Shown one piece after another: positions 42,545-54,302 of a stretch of DNA of 64,000 bases. The DNA is from Planctomycetes bacterium B3_Pla. GTDB lineage: Bacteria > Planctomycetota > Phycisphaerae > Sedimentisphaerales > Anaerobacaceae. The notes under the pieces are model-generated. The model had not been told where the DNA came from. It did not search any database and saw nothing but the letters and a program-made list of their open reading frames with translations. The stretch is taken from contig NJBM01000015.1 in assembly GCA_005223045.1 (NCBI GenBank), positions 62,001-126,000 of the forward strand. The letters are read 5' to 3'. The position numbers were made by a program, and so were the translations under genes. The number at the start of each line of letters is the position of its first letter. Positions within the stretch are counted from its first letter, which is position 1.

Positions 42545-43402
42545 TCACTCACTTCCGGCATCCTCCAGATCAGCAATCAACTTATAAGGTTCTTCTTTCA
42601 GGTACCAATCGATTAGTTTGGCCTGGGCCGTGGCCATTTCCGACCACGGTGAATTAGGGTATTCCGTGATTAGCTGCCCGTACGTTTTCGCCGCTGCGGG
42701 CAGATCGTTGCCGCGCAGGCAGTTTCCTATTTGAAACAGAACCCAGGCCCTGTTCCGAGACGAACCGGCGTCGTCAGGATCTTCACGTTTCAGCACCTCC
42801 TGGTAAAACACAGCAGCTTCTTTCAGGTTCCCACCGAGAAACAGAACCTCTCCCAACTCAAAAGGACTGGAGACTTTCTCGGGATTCTCGGACAAGCCGG
42901 CCATAATCTGCAAAGTCTGGGCGGTGATCGACCTATACGGCAACTTTGGCTCGATTTCACTTTTCCCCTCTCCTTTCTCCACCGTCATCGATGCCGGAGT
43001 TTTATCGGGCTTAATCGCCGGAGTCTCATCGAGAACAATGACAGGCTCTGGGGCCTTCTTCAGCGGCTCGAACTCAACAGAGCGGATGTGTTCGATCAGC
43101 CGTCTGAGTTCATATTTGCTTTTATCATCCTTCCGCCCCTTGGCGAAACTGATATCAGCCCGCCACAATTGGCGACTGTGAGGACTACTTGAATCCGTCA
43201 CAACAACAGGAGTGCTCTGCGCCGATTCCCGGCCGGTCTCAGCAACGGGATTCGCAGAAGCAGTACCGACAAGAGACGTTAAGAGTCGTAACGGCAGGAA
43301 CGTAAAGCAAAATATGTAAAGGCAGAAGTTGAAACCCAAAGCTGCGGAACTCTTGAGTTTCGCATCATGCCCATTTCCTGGATCTGTGTTTCTTATTCTC
43401 AT
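42545..43402 (-). CDS. TPR-containing protein in flagellar operon
   Basis: About 285 residues. The ATG at 43402 overlaps the preceding stop (ATGA); an ATG at 43408 is also possible. A hydrophobic N-terminal segment (FNFCLYIFCFTFLPLRLLTS) is a signal or anchor. The C-terminal part has TPR-type repeats (FELGEVLFLGGNLKEAAVFY and ALQ/YPNSPW-type helices). It probably works with the large TPR protein encoded before it. No flagellar family name was recognised. Confidence 0.7.
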   Translation of the reverse strand: MRIRNTDPGNGHDAKLKSSAALGFNFCLYIFCFTFLPLRLLTSLVGTASANPVAETGRESAQSTPVVVTDSSSPHSRQLWRADISFAKGRKDDKSKYELRRLIEHIRSVEFEPLKKAPEPVIVLDETPAIKPDKTPASMTVEKGEGKSEIEPKLPYRSITAQTLQIMAGLSENPEKVSSPFELGEVLFLGGNLKEAAVFYQEVLKREDPDDAGSSRNRAWVLFQIGNCLRGNDLPAAAKTYGQLITEYPNSPWSEMATAQAKLIDWYLKEEPYKLIADLEDAGSE

Positions 43403-45954
43403 TTCCATTGTCCCGAAAGAGCTAACGCAGCCTTGTCATAATCTTTCTCCTGGCTATAAGCTGCCGCCAGCATTTTTAGAATTTCCTGCTTTGTCCGGGC
43501 AGAGACGTTCAAATTCAGCAACTGAAGGCAAACCGAGATGGCTTGCGAGCTTCGCCCCAGCTTTAGACATACCTCAGCCAGCTCCAGCGCGGTTCTCTGC
43601 GCCAAGAGGCCGGGTTCAACGACGACGAGTATTTCACTCAAACTACTGCGGGCATCCTGCAAATTGCCTTTGGCTATGTGGCACTGGGCCAGCTCAAAGG
43701 ATATTTTCGTGCTTAACTGCGAGTCCGAAACATATTCCGCCCTGTCACGCAGAAAAACAATAGCTGTGTCGGCCAATCCCAGCAGCCGATAGACTCTGCT
43801 CCTGAGCAGCAGTATTTCAACGGATTGTTCCTGCGACAACGCGACCGAATTTGCATTCTCGAGCGTCTCAAGCGCCTCGACTAAATGGTCCTGTTCTATA
43901 TGGCCTTTCACCAGCGCTATGATTGCCTCAATATACTGCTGCCTCGAGTTTTGTTCCACCAGCGCGTATCGAAACGCATCGCAGGCCTGCTGGTATTGGC
44001 CTAACGCCAGATTCGTCTGACCCAGCAGAAAATACGCCGAATACAAATTGCTGTTTTCATCCTCTCCGGCTAAGTTGATGTACCGCGTAAGCCATTCTAC
44101 AGTATCTTCATACGACTTTGTTTTGTAGAAGCATCCGGCAGCTCCAATGGCAGAGGCGGTTTTGGATTCCAGAGACAGTCCGAAATTGTAAACCCTCCGG
44201 TACAGCAGCGCCGCGTCAGCATAGAGCTCCGCATCCATTGTTGCATCTGCAAGACTCAGGTAGGCCTGTCCGTAAATGTCGCTGTCATGATGCCGCTCAA
44301 CAAGCTGTTTCAAATCCTCTCGGGCGCCGTGATAGTCACGCAAGCTCGCTTTCACTTTGCTCGATTGCAACAAAGCGAACGCCGCCAGTTGCATCTGCGA
44401 GAATCGGTTGGCCACCAGTTTGTATTCCGCAACCGCCTCAGTGGGCAGTCCTATCTGAGATTGCAGGAGCCCCATCACGAAGTGGGCGTTGGCGAGCCGT
44501 TTATCGCTGTAAAACGTCAGCACGAATTTTTGCCAGAGCGAAATAGCCTGCTGACTGAGAAAAGATATCTGCTCGCGCAGGGATGAATACTCGGTCGGGT
44601 CAAAAATAGTCACTTTCTGTGTGCCGGGATTGTTTTCCGGCCGCGCCAGCAGGCCGGCGCAGCCGGCTGCAATCAGGACAACCTGCTGTGATGTCGCCGC
44701 CGGCAGATACAAGCAGACCGGCCTTTCTCGGATGGCGCTTTCTCCCGAATTCGGTGAAGCTGCACCCTCTAAAGACCAGTGGACATCCAGTTCTGCGCCG
44801 GCCGCAAACTTCGCCATTAACTCCTCAACCGGCGCACCATAAGAGGTCACAGACCAGCGAGGCGGGCCACTTTGATGCTCGAGTCTTCGAATCCTGGGAT
44901 CGAGCAAGCCCCTGCCCAGATGCTCTGAGCCGGAGTTCAGGAATCTGCGCAATTCCGCCTCATTCAAGCTGCTAAAGTGATCCAGGAACGCAGTCGGGTT
45001 GCTCCATAAATCATCAGGGAGATCGGAATCGGCGTTGCTGAGCGAAAGGATATGACGCGTGAGGCATTCGGCGGCCAAAAAGTGACAATCGCATTCGAAT
45101 GACAATGCCCAATCGTCGTCGAAATCCACAGCTTTGATCAGGGCGATCGTGTTATAAACTCGAGTTCGGGCCCTCAAGTATCGTTTTCTCTGTATTTCAA
45201 GCAGGCAAAGATGGTAATTGGCCACTGTTCGCACTGCCGGGGAGCGACTCTGAGAGATCGTCATCAACAGACGGCTTGCCTGCTCGAAATCGGCCACTTG
45301 TTTCGAACACACGGCCATTCTCAACTGAAGAAAATCCCTGAGCATCTCCTCACTCGCCGGCATAGCTTGACGAAGCTGGTCATAGGCGGCATACGCTTCT
45401 TTGTAGTTCTTTTGCAGATAAAAGTCTCGGGCGACCTTCAAAGATAGTGATCTCGTTGGTGGAGGCACAGGATCCGGCCCCCGGACCTGCTCTTGCACAA
45501 CCTGCACCGGTTCGGTCACCGCCGGCCCGGAAACGGGTGTTTGCCGGACATTCGGCGCGGCCCCGTCGGCCGATGTTGAACTCCGGTCGGCTACGGGAGC
45601 CGAAGGGCCTTTCAACAACTCATACACGAGCATCAATATGACAGCGATAATACTGATAATAAGTACCTTTTGAATCAACGAAAAACGCTTCTGCCCGACA
45701 AACTGCTCGGCCTTGGTATCCGGGTCGGACTCCAGGAGCTCATAAAAATCATCGTCGCCGGCGAACACGTCATGCTCTGAGAGTTGGCTGTGGCCCGCCA
45801 AAACCGAAAGAAGATCGCCCCCGGCGACGTTCTCGCCGACATCACCTGAGAACACTCCGTCCGACTGCGGTTCGGAACTGCTCTGATCGAAAGCGTTTTT
45901 TTGCTCGTCCGTCGCCATAGCTTCCAACTTCGCCCAGGATTCGGACCTGTCCAT
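43399..45954 (-). CDS. Large membrane-anchored TPR protein, first gene of leftward flagellar operon
   Basis: A protein of about 851 residues. ATG 45954 lies downstream of the transcript start predicted from the sigma-54 site at 46009-46024, whereas the more upstream frame start at 46008 does not; ATG 45918 is a further option. A membrane helix (VLIISIIAVILMLVYELL) sits near residue 110, so a long cytoplasmic head precedes a large extracytoplasmic part full of TPR repeats (FYLQKNYKEAYAAYDQLRQA, ALGQYQQACDAFRYALVEQN). The topology suggests a scaffold across the inner membrane. The specific function is unknown. Confidence 0.8.
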   Translation of the reverse strand: MDRSESWAKLEAMATDEQKNAFDQSSSEPQSDGVFSGDVGENVAGGDLLSVLAGHSQLSEHDVFAGDDDFYELLESDPDTKAEQFVGQKRFSLIQKVLIISIIAVILMLVYELLKGPSAPVADRSSTSADGAAPNVRQTPVSGPAVTEPVQVVQEQVRGPDPVPPPTRSLSLKVARDFYLQKNYKEAYAAYDQLRQAMPASEEMLRDFLQLRMAVCSKQVADFEQASRLLMTISQSRSPAVRTVANYHLCLLEIQRKRYLRARTRVYNTIALIKAVDFDDDWALSFECDCHFLAAECLTRHILSLSNADSDLPDDLWSNPTAFLDHFSSLNEAELRRFLNSGSEHLGRGLLDPRIRRLEHQSGPPRWSVTSYGAPVEELMAKFAAGAELDVHWSLEGAASPNSGESAIRERPVCLYLPAATSQQVVLIAAGCAGLLARPENNPGTQKVTIFDPTEYSSLREQISFLSQQAISLWQKFVLTFYSDKRLANAHFVMGLLQSQIGLPTEAVAEYKLVANRFSQMQLAAFALLQSSKVKASLRDYHGAREDLKQLVERHHDSDIYGQAYLSLADATMDAELYADAALLYRRVYNFGLSLESKTASAIGAAGCFYKTKSYEDTVEWLTRYINLAGEDENSNLYSAYFLLGQTNLALGQYQQACDAFRYALVEQNSRQQYIEAIIALVKGHIEQDHLVEALETLENANSVALSQEQSVEILLLRSRVYRLLGLADTAIVFLRDRAEYVSDSQLSTKISFELAQCHIAKGNLQDARSSLSEILVVVEPGLLAQRTALELAEVCLKLGRSSQAISVCLQLLNLNVSARTKQEILKMLAAAYSQEKDYDKAALALSGQWK

Positions 45955-46008
45955 TGTGGCCGGTCCGGATATGTGAGGGCATATTTCACAACATCTTATC
46001 AAGACCAT

Positions 46009-46024
46009 AGCAATAATTGTGCCA
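46009..46024 (-). promoter_or_regulatory. Sigma-54 (-24/-12) promoter of the leftward flagellar operon
   Basis: On the minus strand the sequence is TGGCACAATTATTGCT: TGGCAC, five bases, TTGCT, an exact fit to the -24/-12 consensus spacing. It is 55 bases upstream of the TPR gene start at 45954, in the intergenic gap before that gene. It supports sigma-54 control of an operon that itself encodes a sigma-54 activator. Confidence 0.85.
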
Positions 46025-48174: not shown

Positions 48175-48190
48175 TGGCACAACAATTGCT
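48175..48190 (+). promoter_or_regulatory. Sigma-54 (-24/-12) promoter of the flgD operon
   Basis: TGGCACAACAATTGCT: TGGCAC, five bases, TTGCT, an exact consensus match. The predicted transcript starts near 48200, about 115 bases upstream of flgD. Together with the opposite-strand site at 46009-46024 it frames the FleQ-like activator gene. Confidence 0.88.
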
Positions 48191-48314: not shown

Positions 48315-48698
48315 ATGGCTTCGGTTTCAGAAATAAACTCGGCAAGCAACATCCAGATGGATTATATGAAGCTGCTGGTAACAGAGCTGCAAAACCAGAA
48401 TCCGCTGGAACCATTGGACAACAATCAGATGGCCGCCCAACTTGCACAGTTTTCACAACTGCAGCAGATCGAATCAATGAACTCAAGTTTCGCGAGTGTT
48501 CTCGCCGTCACCGAGCTTAGCTACGCCAGTTCGTTGATAGGCAAAGAGGTTTCATTCATGTCGGAAACATCAGCGGGCGACGAAACGGTCACGAACGGCA
48601 TAGTCGAGGAAGTCATCAATAACGGCGATGGAAAGATCACCCTGTCTGTGGGGAATCAGACTCTGGCCCTGGAAGACGTAATGTCCGTCAAGGACTAA
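48315..48698 (+). CDS. flgD: Flagellar hook-cap / hook assembly protein FlgD (short form)
   Basis: A 127-residue protein, the short type without the long C-terminal domain of enteric FlgD. The N-terminal motif MDYMKLLVTELQNQNPLEPL is diagnostic and is followed by NNQMAAQLAQFSQLQQIESM. FlgD caps the growing hook and is needed for polymerisation of FlgE. The start is preceded by GGAAGAAGA. It is the first gene after the sigma-54 promoter, and flgE follows. Confidence 0.93.
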   Translation: MASVSEINSASNIQMDYMKLLVTELQNQNPLEPLDNNQMAAQLAQFSQLQQIESMNSSFASVLAVTELSYASSLIGKEVSFMSETSAGDETVTNGIVEEVINNGDGKITLSVGNQTLALEDVMSVKD

Positions 48699-48735
48699 TG
48701 TGCGGTTTCGAGTTTCGCTGCAGGGAGAAACAAGA

Positions 48736-50397
48736 ATGAGTTTCACGTCATCAGCCGGAATTACTGGGCCGCAAGCTCACCCCGAAGCGCTTGATGCCGC
48801 CGTCAACAGCCGGCCTAACGTTAATCGCACTGCGCGAAAAGCCGGGGGAGCTACCTTCTCAGACCTGCTGAATGAAACGATAAAAAAAGCATCACACCCA
48901 ACACCCGCCGTCGGCGGCGCCGGTCCTTTGCAATCAAACGGCCTCGGAATAGTCGGAATGTCCCCCAACATGTCACGAGGTAATATCATGAATACGTGTA
49001 ATCCTCTGGACCTGGCGGTGGAAGGAGAAGGCTACTTCGTATTGACAGACGGCCGGCGCGACGTTTACACGCGGGCAGGTTCGTTCGCGGTTGATGCAAA
49101 CATGAACCTGGTCGATCCAGCTACCGGCTTTCATGTCAAGCGCATCGGCTCGGAGGGTGAAATTGCCGGCTTTCAGACGCCCGCTCACAGCGAGATTCGT
49201 ATCCCGTACGACACAACGATGCCGGCAAAAGCGACATCAGAGATAGCAGTCTCCGGCAACCTAAGCGCCAACGCAGGGTTTTCCGCGCCGCAAAAACAGG
49301 TGATAACATCCGGCCTTTCTTATACTTATGACAATGGCACCGCCGCCACCGAAGCAACAAGGATCAACGAGCTCGACCAGCACAGTGGAGTGCTTACTTC
49401 GGGCACAATCAGCATCGGCGGCTACAAGCAGGACGGCACGGCAATTGACGCCGATACTACCTTTGCCGTCGATCGAAGCACTACGCTGGGAGACCTCATC
49501 AGCCACTTGAATACAAATGTCCTCGATGGCTCCACGGCCTCTCTGGCCAACGGGAGAATCCGGATAACCGATGATACAGCCGGCTACAGCAAAACCGACA
49601 TGACTCTGTCGTACTCCGGCAATAGCTCTCTGGCAACGCCGGCCTATTTCGAGATATCGATCCCGGGCGGAGAAGAATCCGGGAACATTAGTATCACGGT
49701 TTATGACTCTCAAGGAGACAAGCATGTACTCTCAGGTGCGTTTGTCCGAGCGGGCGCAGCCAACACCTGGGACATGATTCTTACCTCAATTGCCGGCAAC
49801 GCGGACAAAATAAGCATACCGAACAGGCGTATTGAAGGTATCAGCTTTGACGCCGGCAACGGTTCGTATATGGGGCTGAACGGTTCGAATTCCGCTGAAT
49901 TTGCCATAGCTTTCGCAAATGATGCCGCGAATCCGCAGACTATCCGGTTAAACCCTGGCACCCCGGGAAAGCTGGACGGTTTGACGCAATTCGCTGGAAA
50001 TTCCACTGCCGCCGCAAAGGACCAGAATGGTCATGGGGCAGGCAGACTCTCGACCGTCTCGGTAAACAATGAAGGCACGGTGGTCGGGGCGTTCTCCAAC
50101 GGTGTCAAAAGAAACATTGGGACCATCCAGGTGGCGACGTTCAAGAATTCGCCTGCTCTGGAACACGTTGGCAACGGACACTACATTCCGTCCGCCGGCT
50201 CAGGGGAGCCTGTAGCCGGGCGGGCCATGACCGGCAGCGCTGGTTCCATCCACAACGGGGCCCTGGAAAAATCAAACGCCGACGTGGCGGTTGACTTTGT
50301 AAATATGCTTCAAACTCAAAACGGATTTCAGACCAATGCCGAAACGGTCAAAACGGCCAATGAGATTTTGAAAGAGCTGACCAGCCTGATCAGATAG
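48736..50397 (+). CDS. flgE: Flagellar hook protein FlgE with divergent N-terminal rod motif
   Basis: A 553-residue protein; ATG 48736 follows GGGAGAAA. The C-terminal part is typical of hook proteins: NTCNPLDLAVEGEGYFVLTD, then RAGSFAVDANMNLVDPATGF, and a C-terminal NGALEKSNADVAVDFVNMLQ. At the N terminus, where FlgE proteins carry NNIANVNTxGFK, this one has NSRPNVNRTARKAG, flanked by otherwise alignable residues (GPQAHPEALDAA and ATFSDLLNETI). The domain that forms the inner D0 core is therefore altered. The ORF has no frameshift here. It follows flgD and precedes a PilZ gene. Confidence 0.9.
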   Translation: MSFTSSAGITGPQAHPEALDAAVNSRPNVNRTARKAGGATFSDLLNETIKKASHPTPAVGGAGPLQSNGLGIVGMSPNMSRGNIMNTCNPLDLAVEGEGYFVLTDGRRDVYTRAGSFAVDANMNLVDPATGFHVKRIGSEGEIAGFQTPAHSEIRIPYDTTMPAKATSEIAVSGNLSANAGFSAPQKQVITSGLSYTYDNGTAATEATRINELDQHSGVLTSGTISIGGYKQDGTAIDADTTFAVDRSTTLGDLISHLNTNVLDGSTASLANGRIRITDDTAGYSKTDMTLSYSGNSSLATPAYFEISIPGGEESGNISITVYDSQGDKHVLSGAFVRAGAANTWDMILTSIAGNADKISIPNRRIEGISFDAGNGSYMGLNGSNSAEFAIAFANDAANPQTIRLNPGTPGKLDGLTQFAGNSTAAAKDQNGHGAGRLSTVSVNNEGTVVGAFSNGVKRNIGTIQVATFKNSPALEHVGNGHYIPSAGSGEPVAGRAMTGSAGSIHNGALEKSNADVAVDFVNMLQTQNGFQTNAETVKTANEILKELTSLIR

Positions 50398-50415: not shown

Positions 50416-51726
50416 ATGATAACAGCACCAGCAATAATCGTGAGACTTGACGCCGTTGTTTTGGCGCTGCTCCCAATCGAGCGATGGCAGGCCCTTCGCC
50501 GGCTTGATGCCGACTTTATGGTCGAGCGCTGGTTTGTCCTGATATGTGTGGCCGCTCTGGTCATACTAACTGCTTTGCTCATTGCATCCAGCTATAATCG
50601 CACAAGAAAGGAACGAAGGATCACCAGTCAGTTGTTTACCTCGTATGCGGACAAGAGGGGCCTGAGCCGGCGTGAGCGTCAGATTCTGACGGAGGTGGCA
50701 AGAAGAGCGAAACTAAAGCGAAGTGAATCAATTTTCACTATGGCGGCCGCATTTGGCCGCGGGGCCGCCCAAATGACAGATGAAGCCCACATGCAGCAGG
50801 GAGCTGAATCGAGCAGACATCTGGGCGCCGAGTTAGCGACTTTGCGGGAAAAGCTTGGTTTCCAGAAACGAATCCCGGACTCGGCCGGCTCGGCAACGAA
50901 GCAGGCCAAGCCGAGCAGCCGGCAAATTCCCGTTGGTAGAAAGCTTCACATCAAAAGCAGCCAGGCCCTGGAGCTGGGTGACATTGAGGCTACCGTTATA
51001 AAGAGCGACGATACCGAACTTGTTGCAACATTAAGCTCGTCTTTTGAAAGTAATCCCGGCGAGTTATGCTGCGTCCATTACTATTTCGGCGCATCCGTTT
51101 GGGAGTTCGACGCTTCCGTGATTAGCTATCACGGCGGCATTTTGATTTTGAGTCACAGTGACGACGTGCGGTTTATCAATCGTCGGCGTTTCCTGCGTGT
51201 GCCGGTAAACATGCCGGCTTTTATCGCACGTTTTCCGTTCGCAAGAATCCTGCCGCCAGGTAATAGCCCCGGCGATGAGATAGGCGGCGACCTGACCAAT
51301 CTGCCCTGGAACACCTGGGGACCGCCTGAATTTGTGCCTGCGGCAGTAACTGAGCTGGCCGGCCCGGGCCTGCGTCTGGAGACCCCGCTCGAAGTAAAAG
51401 TAGGCGAAAGGGTGATGGTGATAATCAAGATAAATGAGGAACAGAATCAGGACGCGACCGCACAAGCCGCCCCGGTGCAAAACGACAAAGCAACGCCATC
51501 AAGAATAGTGGAGGACATTGGCGAAGTCAGGCACATCAAGACCGTACAAAATGGATTTTCGATAGCAGTTGAATTGACGGGGCTTAGTGACTCAAACGTC
51601 AACGAGCTGGTTCGTGCAACTAACACAGCTTCTTTGAAAGCCGGCCTCAAAACTCAGGATGTCCCGGCATCCGGCGCCGGCGAGGACAACAGGATAGCGC
51701 AAGCTTCGGAGCCTGTAACCGTATAA
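50416..51726 (+). CDS. Membrane-associated PilZ-domain protein (c-di-GMP receptor candidate)
   Basis: A 436-residue protein. One membrane helix (VLICVAALVILTALLIASSY) is near residue 45. A YcgR-like N-terminal domain precedes the PilZ domain. The PilZ RxxxR motif is visible in NRRRFLRVPVNMPA, and the second motif is approximated by ELAGPGLRLE in place of the usual D/NxSxxG. It is placed between flgE and flgF, directly in the hook-rod operon. It may sense c-di-GMP to slow the motor or control export, as YcgR does; binding is inferred from the motif. Confidence 0.75.
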   Translation: MITAPAIIVRLDAVVLALLPIERWQALRRLDADFMVERWFVLICVAALVILTALLIASSYNRTRKERRITSQLFTSYADKRGLSRRERQILTEVARRAKLKRSESIFTMAAAFGRGAAQMTDEAHMQQGAESSRHLGAELATLREKLGFQKRIPDSAGSATKQAKPSSRQIPVGRKLHIKSSQALELGDIEATVIKSDDTELVATLSSSFESNPGELCCVHYYFGASVWEFDASVISYHGGILILSHSDDVRFINRRRFLRVPVNMPAFIARFPFARILPPGNSPGDEIGGDLTNLPWNTWGPPEFVPAAVTELAGPGLRLETPLEVKVGERVMVIIKINEEQNQDATAQAAPVQNDKATPSRIVEDIGEVRHIKTVQNGFSIAVELTGLSDSNVNELVRATNTASLKAGLKTQDVPASGAGEDNRIAQASEPVTV

Positions 51727-51736
51727 GGGATTTAAA

Positions 51737-52447
51737 ATGTTGGATGTTATAGCAAGCATTAGCGCACTAACTCGGGAATTCGAGACCATTACGCACAATA
51801 TGGCGAATGCCGGCACGGTCGGATATAAGCGCAGGAGCAACGCATTTTCAAAATCCCTTGAGACGAATGGAGAATATTCGGCGGGAAATGAAGATTTGAG
51901 CTCGATGTTTGATTTTTCCCAGGGCAGCACGGTTGAAACAGGCCGGCCTCTGGATCTTGCCTTATTTGGGAAAGGTTTTTTTGCCGTAGAGACGCCCGAT
52001 GGGCCGCTTTACACCCGAAACGGCATGTTCAGCACGAATCAGAACGGCCAGATCGTGGATTCTATCGGGCGAATCGTGGCGGGTCAGTCCGGCCCAATCA
52101 CGATACCGGGCAATGTAGGCATCTCGCAACTGTACGTCGCCGGCGACGGAACCATAAGCGCCGGGTCCACAACTTTAGGGAAACTCAGGCTGGTTGATTT
52201 CGAGGGCAACGAAAACAAGCTTGTGCCAACCGGCGACAGTTCCTACCGGATGCCGGATGAGACGATAATCCCGGTTGCAGCACAACACATGGTAATCAAG
52301 CAGGGTTATCAGGAAGCATCCAACGTTAAAATCATAGAAGAATTAGTGGACATGATATTTGTGACCAGACTCTACGAAGCGAACGTGAAATCAATCACAG
52401 CCCAGCAGGAAGCCTCCAGCACTCTCATGAGCGCGGCTATGGGCTAA
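51737..52447 (+). CDS. flgF: Flagellar basal-body rod protein FlgF
   Basis: A 236-residue rod protein. It begins with LTREFETITHNMANAGTVGY, a variant of the NNIANVNTxGF rod motif. TGRPLDLALFGKGFFAVETP and YTRNGMFSTNQNGQIVDSIG are also typical of FlgF/FlgG. It is shorter than FlgG, as expected. The C terminus has the ELVDMIFVTRLYEANVKSIT helix of rod proteins. It follows the PilZ gene closely and precedes flgG. Confidence 0.9.
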   Translation: MLDVIASISALTREFETITHNMANAGTVGYKRRSNAFSKSLETNGEYSAGNEDLSSMFDFSQGSTVETGRPLDLALFGKGFFAVETPDGPLYTRNGMFSTNQNGQIVDSIGRIVAGQSGPITIPGNVGISQLYVAGDGTISAGSTTLGKLRLVDFEGNENKLVPTGDSSYRMPDETIIPVAAQHMVIKQGYQEASNVKIIEELVDMIFVTRLYEANVKSITAQQEASSTLMSAAMG

Positions 52448-52478: not shown

Positions 52479-53264
52479 ATGATGAGAGCATTTTCCACTG
52501 CGGCGACCGGCATGGCCGCACAGCAGATGATGGTGGACGTGATCGCCAATAACCTGGCCAACGTCAATACGTCGGGATTTAAGCGAAGCCAGGTAAATTT
52601 TCAGGATTTGCTTTACGTCACGATGCAACAACCCGGTACGGAAGTCTCTTCCGGCATAAATTCGCCCAGCGGACTGGAAATAGGCAGCGGAGTCCGCGTA
52701 GCATCAACGATTAAAGTCTTTACTATCGGTGAACTTCAGAATACCGCCAACCCTCTTGACATAGCCGTCGCAGGTGAGGGGTTTCTTCAGGTAACCATGC
52801 CGAACGGCGCTCTGCGGTACACCCGCGACGGCTCACTGCTGGTAAATGGCAACGGTCAATTAGTTACGGCAACCGGATACATTATAGAACCGGCTATCAC
52901 TGTTCCAACAGACGCAACCAGTGTGACCATCGAAAAGGACGGAGGCGTTAATGTTATCGATTCTGCGGGGACTCGGTCGGTCGCGGGTATAATTCAACTG
53001 GCCCGGTTTCCAAATCCATCGGGGCTTTCAAGCGAAGGGGACAACCTGTTTGCAGAAACCGAAGCAAGCGGCACATATACGACCGGGACACCCGGAGAAA
53101 GCGGTTTCGCCATGATCCAGTCCGGATTTCTCGAAAAGTCCAACGTGCAAATGGTGACCGAACTGGTCAACCTCATAACGGCACAGCGAGCATACGAGAT
53201 AAACTCGCGCGCCATAAGGGCAGGCGACGACATGCTTCAAACGGCGAACAATATCGTCAGATAA
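52479..53264 (+). CDS. flgG: Flagellar distal rod protein FlgG
   Basis: A 261-residue distal-rod protein of standard size. It starts with two ATG codons after AAGGAGAA. FSTAATGMAAQQMMVDVIAN and NLANVNTSGFKRSQVNFQDL are near-exact FlgG signatures; AVAGEGFLQVTMPNGALRYT and the C-terminal MVTELVNLITAQRAYEINSR complete it. It builds the distal rod between FlgF and the hook. It is followed ten bases later by flgA. Confidence 0.97.
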   Translation: MMRAFSTAATGMAAQQMMVDVIANNLANVNTSGFKRSQVNFQDLLYVTMQQPGTEVSSGINSPSGLEIGSGVRVASTIKVFTIGELQNTANPLDIAVAGEGFLQVTMPNGALRYTRDGSLLVNGNGQLVTATGYIIEPAITVPTDATSVTIEKDGGVNVIDSAGTRSVAGIIQLARFPNPSGLSSEGDNLFAETEASGTYTTGTPGESGFAMIQSGFLEKSNVQMVTELVNLITAQRAYEINSRAIRAGDDMLQTANNIVR

Positions 53265-53273
53265 GGAACCATT

Positions 53274-54302
53274 ATGAGCAAAAGAAGGGGCACAAAAGCA
53301 AAGGGATATAGCATTGCAGGCGTCTTTGCAGTTTGCCTGGTTATAACTTGCGCACTCTTTTGCAGGGCATCGGCAAATGACAAAACCGGCGACCTCCCGC
53401 CCAACCCCGGCCTGAAGGTTTACCTGCCGAGAGAAGTTACAGTTAAAGACAGTGACTTGAGCCTGGGACAGATCAGCATTATCCGAGGCAACGTATCTCT
53501 CGCAGCCAGGGCGAACAAAATCACGCTGGGACGGATATCGCTGCCGGGTCAAAAGATTATAGTTGACAGGCACATGGTTTTGAGCAGATTGGCCTGCAAC
53601 GGGATCCCCGCATCGAAAGTAACATTGACAGGCGCAAAGAAGACGACTGTCAAACAGCAGTACAGGATAATCAGCGGCGATCAATTCATCGCGCTGGCAA
53701 GCTCCTTCATAGACGCCAACTCTCCACGCGCTCCAACTTCTCGATGGCATCCGATGCGCAAACCTAAAGATTTCGCTATTCCAGGGACGGCCAAAGACTT
53801 GAAGTTTTCTCCCCGATTGCTCAAGAGCAATATGAGAAACCAGGCAAGAGTTGAGATTGCTCTGCTTTCCGGCGGCAAGAAGATCGGCGCGCGTGAAGTA
53901 ATCTTAGGATTGAAATATAAGTGCCGCCACGCAGTGGCGAAGGTTGACATTGCCGCCGGTGCGGTCATCGGCATAGAGAACGTTAAGATAGAAGAGAAAT
54001 TGTCGAACTACCCAGAGCCAGCCGGCTGGAAGCCGCCCTACGGCCTGATCGCCAGGCGCAGTCTGCGGGCAAATACGGTCCTTCGCCCGAATATGGCCGG
54101 GCCTGTCAAGTCGCCAATTGTAGTCAAGCGGAACCAAAACGTTGTGATTCGAATTGAAAGACCCGGATTCCTGATAACGGCCGTCGGAACAACCATGCAG
54201 GATGGCAAAGCCGGTGAATATATCAAAATCCGGAACGTGGACTCACAACGAATAATCGTGGCAAGGATCAACGCAGATGGAAGCGTGGAACCCGTGCTGT
54301 AA
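53274..54302 (+). CDS. flgA: P-ring assembly chaperone FlgA
   Basis: A 342-residue protein with a signal peptide (SIAGVFAVCLVITCALFCRA). The C-terminal SAF-type domain (VDIAAGAVIGIENVKIEEKL and RRSLRANTVLRPNMAGPVKS) and the following beta domain (GTTMQDGKAGEYIKIRNVDS) match FlgA, the periplasmic chaperone for the P-ring protein FlgI. It is longer than enteric FlgA because of an N-terminal segment of about 130 residues. It sits before flgH and flgI. Confidence 0.92.
   Translation: MSKRRGTKAKGYSIAGVFAVCLVITCALFCRASANDKTGDLPPNPGLKVYLPREVTVKDSDLSLGQISIIRGNVSLAARANKITLGRISLPGQKIIVDRHMVLSRLACNGIPASKVTLTGAKKTTVKQQYRIISGDQFIALASSFIDANSPRAPTSRWHPMRKPKDFAIPGTAKDLKFSPRLLKSNMRNQARVEIALLSGGKKIGAREVILGLKYKCRHAVAKVDIAAGAVIGIENVKIEEKLSNYPEPAGWKPPYGLIARRSLRANTVLRPNMAGPVKSPIVVKRNQNVVIRIERPGFLITAVGTTMQDGKAGEYIKIRNVDSQRIIVARINADGSVEPVL

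Follow-up and report, generated by a model that had tools for sequence, protein, structure and literature searches.

The flagellar operon and its hook gene

The window, by which we mean the whole 64,000-nucleotide stretch analysed here (G000:C37:62001-126000), belongs to the genome of a sediment bacterium, of 5.98 Mb in 47 contigs, that is 92.8% complete with 5.83% contamination, and it carries a flagellar operon in the order flgD-flgE-X-flgF-flgG-flgA, common to its relatives. The features of the operon, including those within flgE, are the following:

48175..48190, + strand: predicted sigma-54 (-24/-12) box TGGCACAACAATTGCT upstream of the flgD-flgE operon, an exact match to TGGCACN5TTGCW
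48315..48698, + strand: flgD, hook cap protein (Pfam FlgD, 7.5e-19)
48736..50397, + strand: operon flgE, a hook paralogue of 553 aa degenerate in D0-Dc (open frame, profile matches)
48736..48975, + strand: D0 N-helix and Dc segment of FlgE, residues 1-80, degenerate (conserved-site counts)
48805..48840, + strand: lost motif site, residues 24-35, where NSRPNVNRTARK replaces NNLANVNTTAFK
48856..48870, + strand: retained putative gate-recognition motif FSDLL, residues 41-45 (alignment with Salmonella 39-43)
48976..50253, + strand: D1 and D2 part, residues 81-506, apparently under purifying selection (PF22692 and PF07559 above cut-off; pN/pS)
50254..50394, + strand: C-terminal D0 part, residues 507-553 (PF06429, 1.5e-10; 19 of 25 conserved sites kept)
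50416..51726, + strand: 436-aa gene between flgE and flgF, conserved in relatives, with no Pfam match
51737..52447, + strand: flgF (TIGR02490, 161.6 bits, below the 178.5 cut-off)
52479..53264, + strand: flgG (TIGR02488, 329 bits)
53274..54302, + strand: flgA-like gene, presumably so from its place (operon order shared by relatives)

The operon flgE is one uninterrupted frame from the ATG at 48736 to 50397, with MSFTSSAGITGPQAHPEALDAAVNSRPNVNRTARKAGGATFSDLLNETI as its translated start; a GTG also lies in frame at 48700, and the ATG is favoured by the preceding GGGAGA and by alignment. Within this single frame, each residue of the altered stretch can be aligned with one in the canonical copies, which rejects a frameshift as the cause of the motif loss, as the initial annotation had already held. 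That annotation also found recognisable motifs in the neighbouring proteins, and these are indeed present in FlgF (HNMANAGTVGYKR), FlgG (NNLANVNTSGFKR) and FlgK (NNIANAATDGYHR); the FlgD motif is kept too. Exact matches to TGGCACN5TTGCW number two in the window against 0.10 expected, and the second of them (46009-46024, - strand) stands directly before an 869-aa frame (43399-46008, - strand).

By profile, the window protein is a hook protein in its middle and at its C-terminus, matching FlgE_D2 (PF07559, 7.3e-13), the D1 domain (PF22692) and Flg_bbr_C (PF06429, 1.5e-10), and the N-terminal rod domain Flg_bb_rod (PF00460) is absent from its Pfam matches at E<=1. It scores above the FlgEFG subfamily cut-off (TIGR03506, 201.6 vs 70.25) and below that of the NCBIfam FlgE equivalog (255.5 vs 469), as do the canonical controls (308.1 and 315.9). 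An AlphaFold model has a mean pLDDT of 62.3, with low confidence at both ends (below 50 for residues 1-92) and better values in D1-D2; run without a canonical control, it informs on the fold of the middle part only, and its disordered N-terminus is not counted as evidence. Searched against the PDB, this model hits hook proteins (5NPY, 5JXL, Salmonella hooks), in agreement with the sequence search. The operon copy of G001, a genome of the same genus, gives a mean pLDDT of 29.9.

The best Foldseek match of the low-confidence window model is 5NPY (E 2.3e-13), FlgE2, by its entry title a second FlgE-type protein of Helicobacter pylori. The FlgE2 N-terminus aligns weakly with the canonical one (residues 7-52, E 0.014), whereas a search with the window N-terminus does not return FlgE2. 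Compared with FlgE of Salmonella (6JZT) and Campylobacter (5JXL), the window copy is alike in D1, D2, the C-terminal domain, the gate-recognition motif and its place in the operon, but it lacks the N-terminal D0-Dc stacking segment containing NNxANxNTxxFK, and its genome has a second, canonical copy.

A second, canonical flgE

Besides the operon gene, the window's genome holds another full flgE at C45:33805-35832 (L008:8806-10833), which stands apart from other flagellar genes and encodes 676 residues with the motif HNLANVNTTAFK. The initial annotation had treated the window gene as the hook gene of its lineage while allowing that a canonical copy might exist elsewhere; such a copy, with its own predicted sigma-54 box, is present in all three genomes of the genus, a finding that the annotation itself had named as grounds against it, and the claim is wrong or at least incomplete. 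In the other two, the metagenome-assembled genomes SG8_4 (G001; LJTR01) and BS750m-G58 (G002; JADHXR01), both labelled Phycisphaerae, the operon copies read INQVDVDRSARR and INKADVDRSAQR, and canonical flgE again lies elsewhere.

Two full flgE genes occur in eight of the 161 genomes sampled from the order (112 with a match; the family sample comprised 89 genomes, 68 with a match), not counting double matches that were fragments of a single gene or truncated at a contig end: the three genomes of the window's genus (g1), four of genus g13 (G014, G051, G052, G054) and G089. In seven of these eight the motif is missing from the operon copy, against none of the 88 readable single-copy genomes. In the eighth, G089, we see what would be an early form, with the 12-residue motif recognisable and the preceding helix reading TEPQANQ, with proline for L12. 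The single-copy scan covered 89 genomes, the remaining single-copy genomes lying outside it, and found the motif with at most one mismatch in 88, so that its loss is not chance variation; with the translation, these near-canonical relatives confirm the absence of the motif from the window FlgE as a real observation. The 89th genome (G019) was unreadable, and it was rejected as a further degenerate copy, since at a scaffold gap of 100 N (L044:9927-10026) an ABC-transporter gene runs into the 3' half of flgE, likely through a false join. A fifth g13 genome, G053, has one canonical operon flgE, and no orphan flgE was found in it. In the wider class, no further two-copy case appeared among the matches listed (397 genomes sampled, 245 matched, at most three candidates scored per genome), and a literature search, with most subscription journals outside its reach, found no published report of such a pattern.

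That the pattern is an artefact of assembly or binning is exceedingly improbable. The genomes concerned are incomplete, the named ones are metagenome-assembled, and the window's genome has the contamination given above; yet the pattern recurs in SG8_4 and BS750m-G58, which by their record titles come from separate studies, and in four g13 genomes. An assembly error at the locus itself, a possibility raised earlier, is contradicted by the loss at the same place in both other genomes of the genus. Furthermore, the tetranucleotide make-up of C45 pieces correlates with that of the window at 0.77-0.92, the range of most other contigs of the genome tried.

A box of the TGGCACRN4TTGC type with at most one mismatch lies 82-303 bases upstream of all eight orphan flgE genes, a single one per locus; the background rate, taken across 584 kb of strand with the orphan matches included, is 0.009 per 400 bases. 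Six of six flgD operons scanned carry a sigma-54 box 95-140 bases upstream; like the others, these boxes are sequence matches, that is, predicted promoters. Their presence bears on the reading that the operon FlgE is a normal hook protein with a drifted N-terminus, the orphan serving something else. Place in an operon with a sigma-54 box speaks for it, but the loss tracks the presence of the orphan, and the orphan is canonical with a sigma-54 box of its own; we consider this reading very unlikely.

What the degenerate copies lost and kept

In Salmonella FlgE, D0-Dc comprises residues 1-71 and 358-402 (PMC6874566), and the motif site, as the initial annotation had placed it, lies within this hook-core packing segment. 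With conserved sites defined from 24 canonical rows, the window FlgE keeps 10 of 21 in residues 1-40 as against 92 of 105 in residues 81-506, and across the seven degenerate copies the ranges are 8-13 of 21 (residues 1-40), 3-9 of 13 (46-80) and 78-98 of 105 (81-506); the damage is, by these alignments, centred on D0-Dc, the predicted stacking segment. Of 25 conserved C-terminal sites, 23-24 remain in three g13 copies, 19 in the window copy and 11-14 in those of G001, G002 and G051. PF00460 is missing from the six degenerate copies tried (of seven) and present in five of five canonical FlgE (E<=0.1); FlgE_D2 is kept in all six, with scores as high as canonical, and the C-terminal Pfam domain in four. 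The operon copies of G001 and G002 have lost PF06429 and a middle segment.

A two-part hook, in which the operon protein would be a minor subunit beside the canonical one, held by D1-D2 contacts and the C-terminal helix, would accord with the retention of D1 and D2 in the six copies tested and of the C-terminal domain in four of them. However, in G001 and G002 the damage extends to both D0 helices, and in g1 proline replaces the conserved L12; we regard a two-part hook as improbable.

Within the damaged region, one short stretch stands out. None of the seven degenerate copies differs at F41, S42, L44 or L45, so that invariant sites number four of five in this stretch and two among the 29 of residues 12-40 (Fisher's test treating sites as independent, P 0.0015). 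Aligning a canonical copy with Salmonella FlgE shows a shift of two residues (query 5-45, chain 3-43), which equates F41-L45 with Salmonella residues 39-43, the gate-recognition motif; FSDLL 41-45 is thus the predicted gate-recognition motif of the window FlgE. In a study of Salmonella FlgE, replacing residues 9-32 with a neutral linker leaves export at the wild-type level, and shortening weakens export and causes the machinery to stall (PMC8983047). The g1 copies keep the spacing to the motif, and G052 has a 24-column insertion ahead of it. The FlgE-short and linker variants (PMC8983047) resemble the window copy in having lost residues 9-32 beside a kept gate-recognition motif, but they are engineered, whereas the window change is natural and keeps its spacing in g1.

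Given this tolerance of a linker, the lost stretch, which lies within the hook-core packing domain, would be largely dispensable for export. The earlier suggestion that hook packing or export may differ in this lineage stands in part: the stacking segment is lost, and the export signal is probably not, since FSDLL is kept and most of the changed region is replaceable by a linker in Salmonella FlgE (PMC8983047). The first residues are another matter. In the hydrophobic N-terminal signal region of the window FlgE, residues 7-9 (AGI) remain and A4 has become T; A4T is found throughout g1, and A4E and S/T6P in g13, so that the export signal formed by the hydrophobic N-terminus may have suffered.

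Independence and timing of the losses

Trees were built by a quick method, with no bootstrap, from FlgE residues 81-553 and from FlgF with FlgG. In both, the operon copies of g1 fall in a different clade from those of g13, and canonical genera g19 and g55 lie nearby. On these trees the losses in the two genera are independent, and a single ancestral loss, which both trees disfavour, was set aside. The orphans are likewise not one clade: that of G000 groups with G089, those of G001 and G002 with G006 and G050, and those of g13 with G015 and G063. From the separate clades of operon copies and the scattered orphans, orphan acquisition and motif loss each probably occurred more than once. Within the first 40 residues, A4T, L12P and S/T31R are common to the three g1 operon copies and occur in none of the 24 canonical rows, which suggests that the g1 loss predates the divergence of its three species. 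In G053 (L072), the operon FlgE groups with genus g55 and its FlgF and FlgG do not, a possible in-place gene replacement.

Selection on the operon copies

All seven operon frames are open, with no stop or frameshift found, and neutral simulation of three of the genes (500 runs each) gave on average 5.8, 11.3 and 7.6 stops and no stop-free run. From residue 81 to the end, pN/pS is 0.34, 0.32 and 0.28 for the g1 operon pairs and 0.23 and 0.38 for the g13 pairs (upper limits 0.29-0.49), as against 0.14, 0.21 and 0.29 for canonical operon pairs and 0.25, 0.25 and 0.54 for orphan pairs; synonymous change is high in some of the pairs. The faster evolution of the operon copies (0.23-0.38 vs 0.14-0.29) indicates a constraint that is mostly weaker than on canonical operon copies, yet real. 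In residues 1-45 the values are 0.54, 0.49 and 0.51 (g1 operon) and 1.95 and 0.33 (g13 operon), vs 0.09, 0 and 0.10 for canonical operon pairs and 0.20, 0 and 0.34 for orphans. For the five operon pairs, the N-terminus fails to exceed the rest in a share of 0.13, 0.079, 0.031, 0.000 and 0.63 of the bootstrap replicates; one pair shows a strong N-terminal rise, three a weak one and one (G052/G054) none, and the rise can be called clear in one or two of the five at most.

With FSDLL, D1 and D2 kept and ratios beyond residue 81 far from 1, the operon flgE is, by these measures, not simply dead. The main rival to a retained role is slow decay after replacement, in which a functionless operon copy is vanishing and its frame stays open mainly because stops would cut flgF and flgG expression. 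Consistent with decay are the deletions in G001 and G002, pN/pS above that of canonical copies, and weakened start codons in g13, where the operon flgE begins with CTG in G014 and G051 and with TTG in G052 and G054 behind a GGAGA-like ribosome site (L084, L069, L066, L070), all canonical copies compared having ATG. But polarity alone would preserve the frame and not the amino acids, and among species with a shared loss pN/pS from residue 81 on is much lower than 1 (0.28-0.34 in g1), FlgE_D2 scores stay at the canonical level, and four of the five gate-recognition sites are invariant. Slow decay is a real possibility, and still a rather unlikely one; we cautiously favour a kept role as an exportable, non-stacking core.

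A proposed history of the operon FlgE

The comparisons show the operon flgE as one of two hook genes, its D0-Dc evidently lost independently in two lineages and its D1-D2 and putative export-gate motif apparently under selection. The simplest account would be that a canonical, sigma-54-driven hook gene arrives and replaces the resident, which is freed from stacking. The incoming copy most likely now builds the hook; the operon copy would still be made with the hook operon, and its product may dock at the flagellar export gate and go through it, presumably unable to stack as a normal hook subunit. The weakest step concerns what this product does: as a soluble D1-D2 hook core, it would most likely be a non-polymerising partner, a brake or a secreted product of hook assembly rather than a structural subunit. 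Taken whole, that the orphan took over the hook and the operon copy was retained as a non-stacking, exportable D1-D2 core is a reading to which we give slightly better than even chances. More tentative, and on balance doubtful, is the general form of the idea, in which a resident hook subunit repeatedly becomes an export-competent, assembly-incompetent core that regulates or accompanies hook building once a second hook gene has been acquired; if true, it would be a natural and recurrent separation of export from stacking in a flagellar axial protein. The seven operon genes offer a natural case, in at least two lineages, of a hook protein that has lost its stacking segment, with export motif and outer domains apparently still selected; they point to hook-gene replacement with the conserved operon left in place, and make it testable whether hook subunits can have non-hook roles.

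Surroundings of the orphan genes

No shared flagellar gene was found beside the orphans in the neighbourhoods examined. Several orphan loci adjoin long related proteins (G000 L008:5400-8721, G089 L074:2876-5002, G054 L067:3448-5262, G052 L071:2245-4104). Those of G000 and G089 are coiled coils rich in Ala, Lys and Glu; the one in G089 also has a PAS domain, and the one in G054 has CBS domains. At the G000 locus, the coil is read in another frame than the PAS-like part. The orphan FlgE of these same four genomes is about 100 aa longer, as is the operon FlgE of G053, G025 and several g55 genomes. Elsewhere in the window's genome, L131 (G000:C30) differs in tetranucleotide make-up from most other pieces tried (0.27-0.83) and is possibly a foreign contig.
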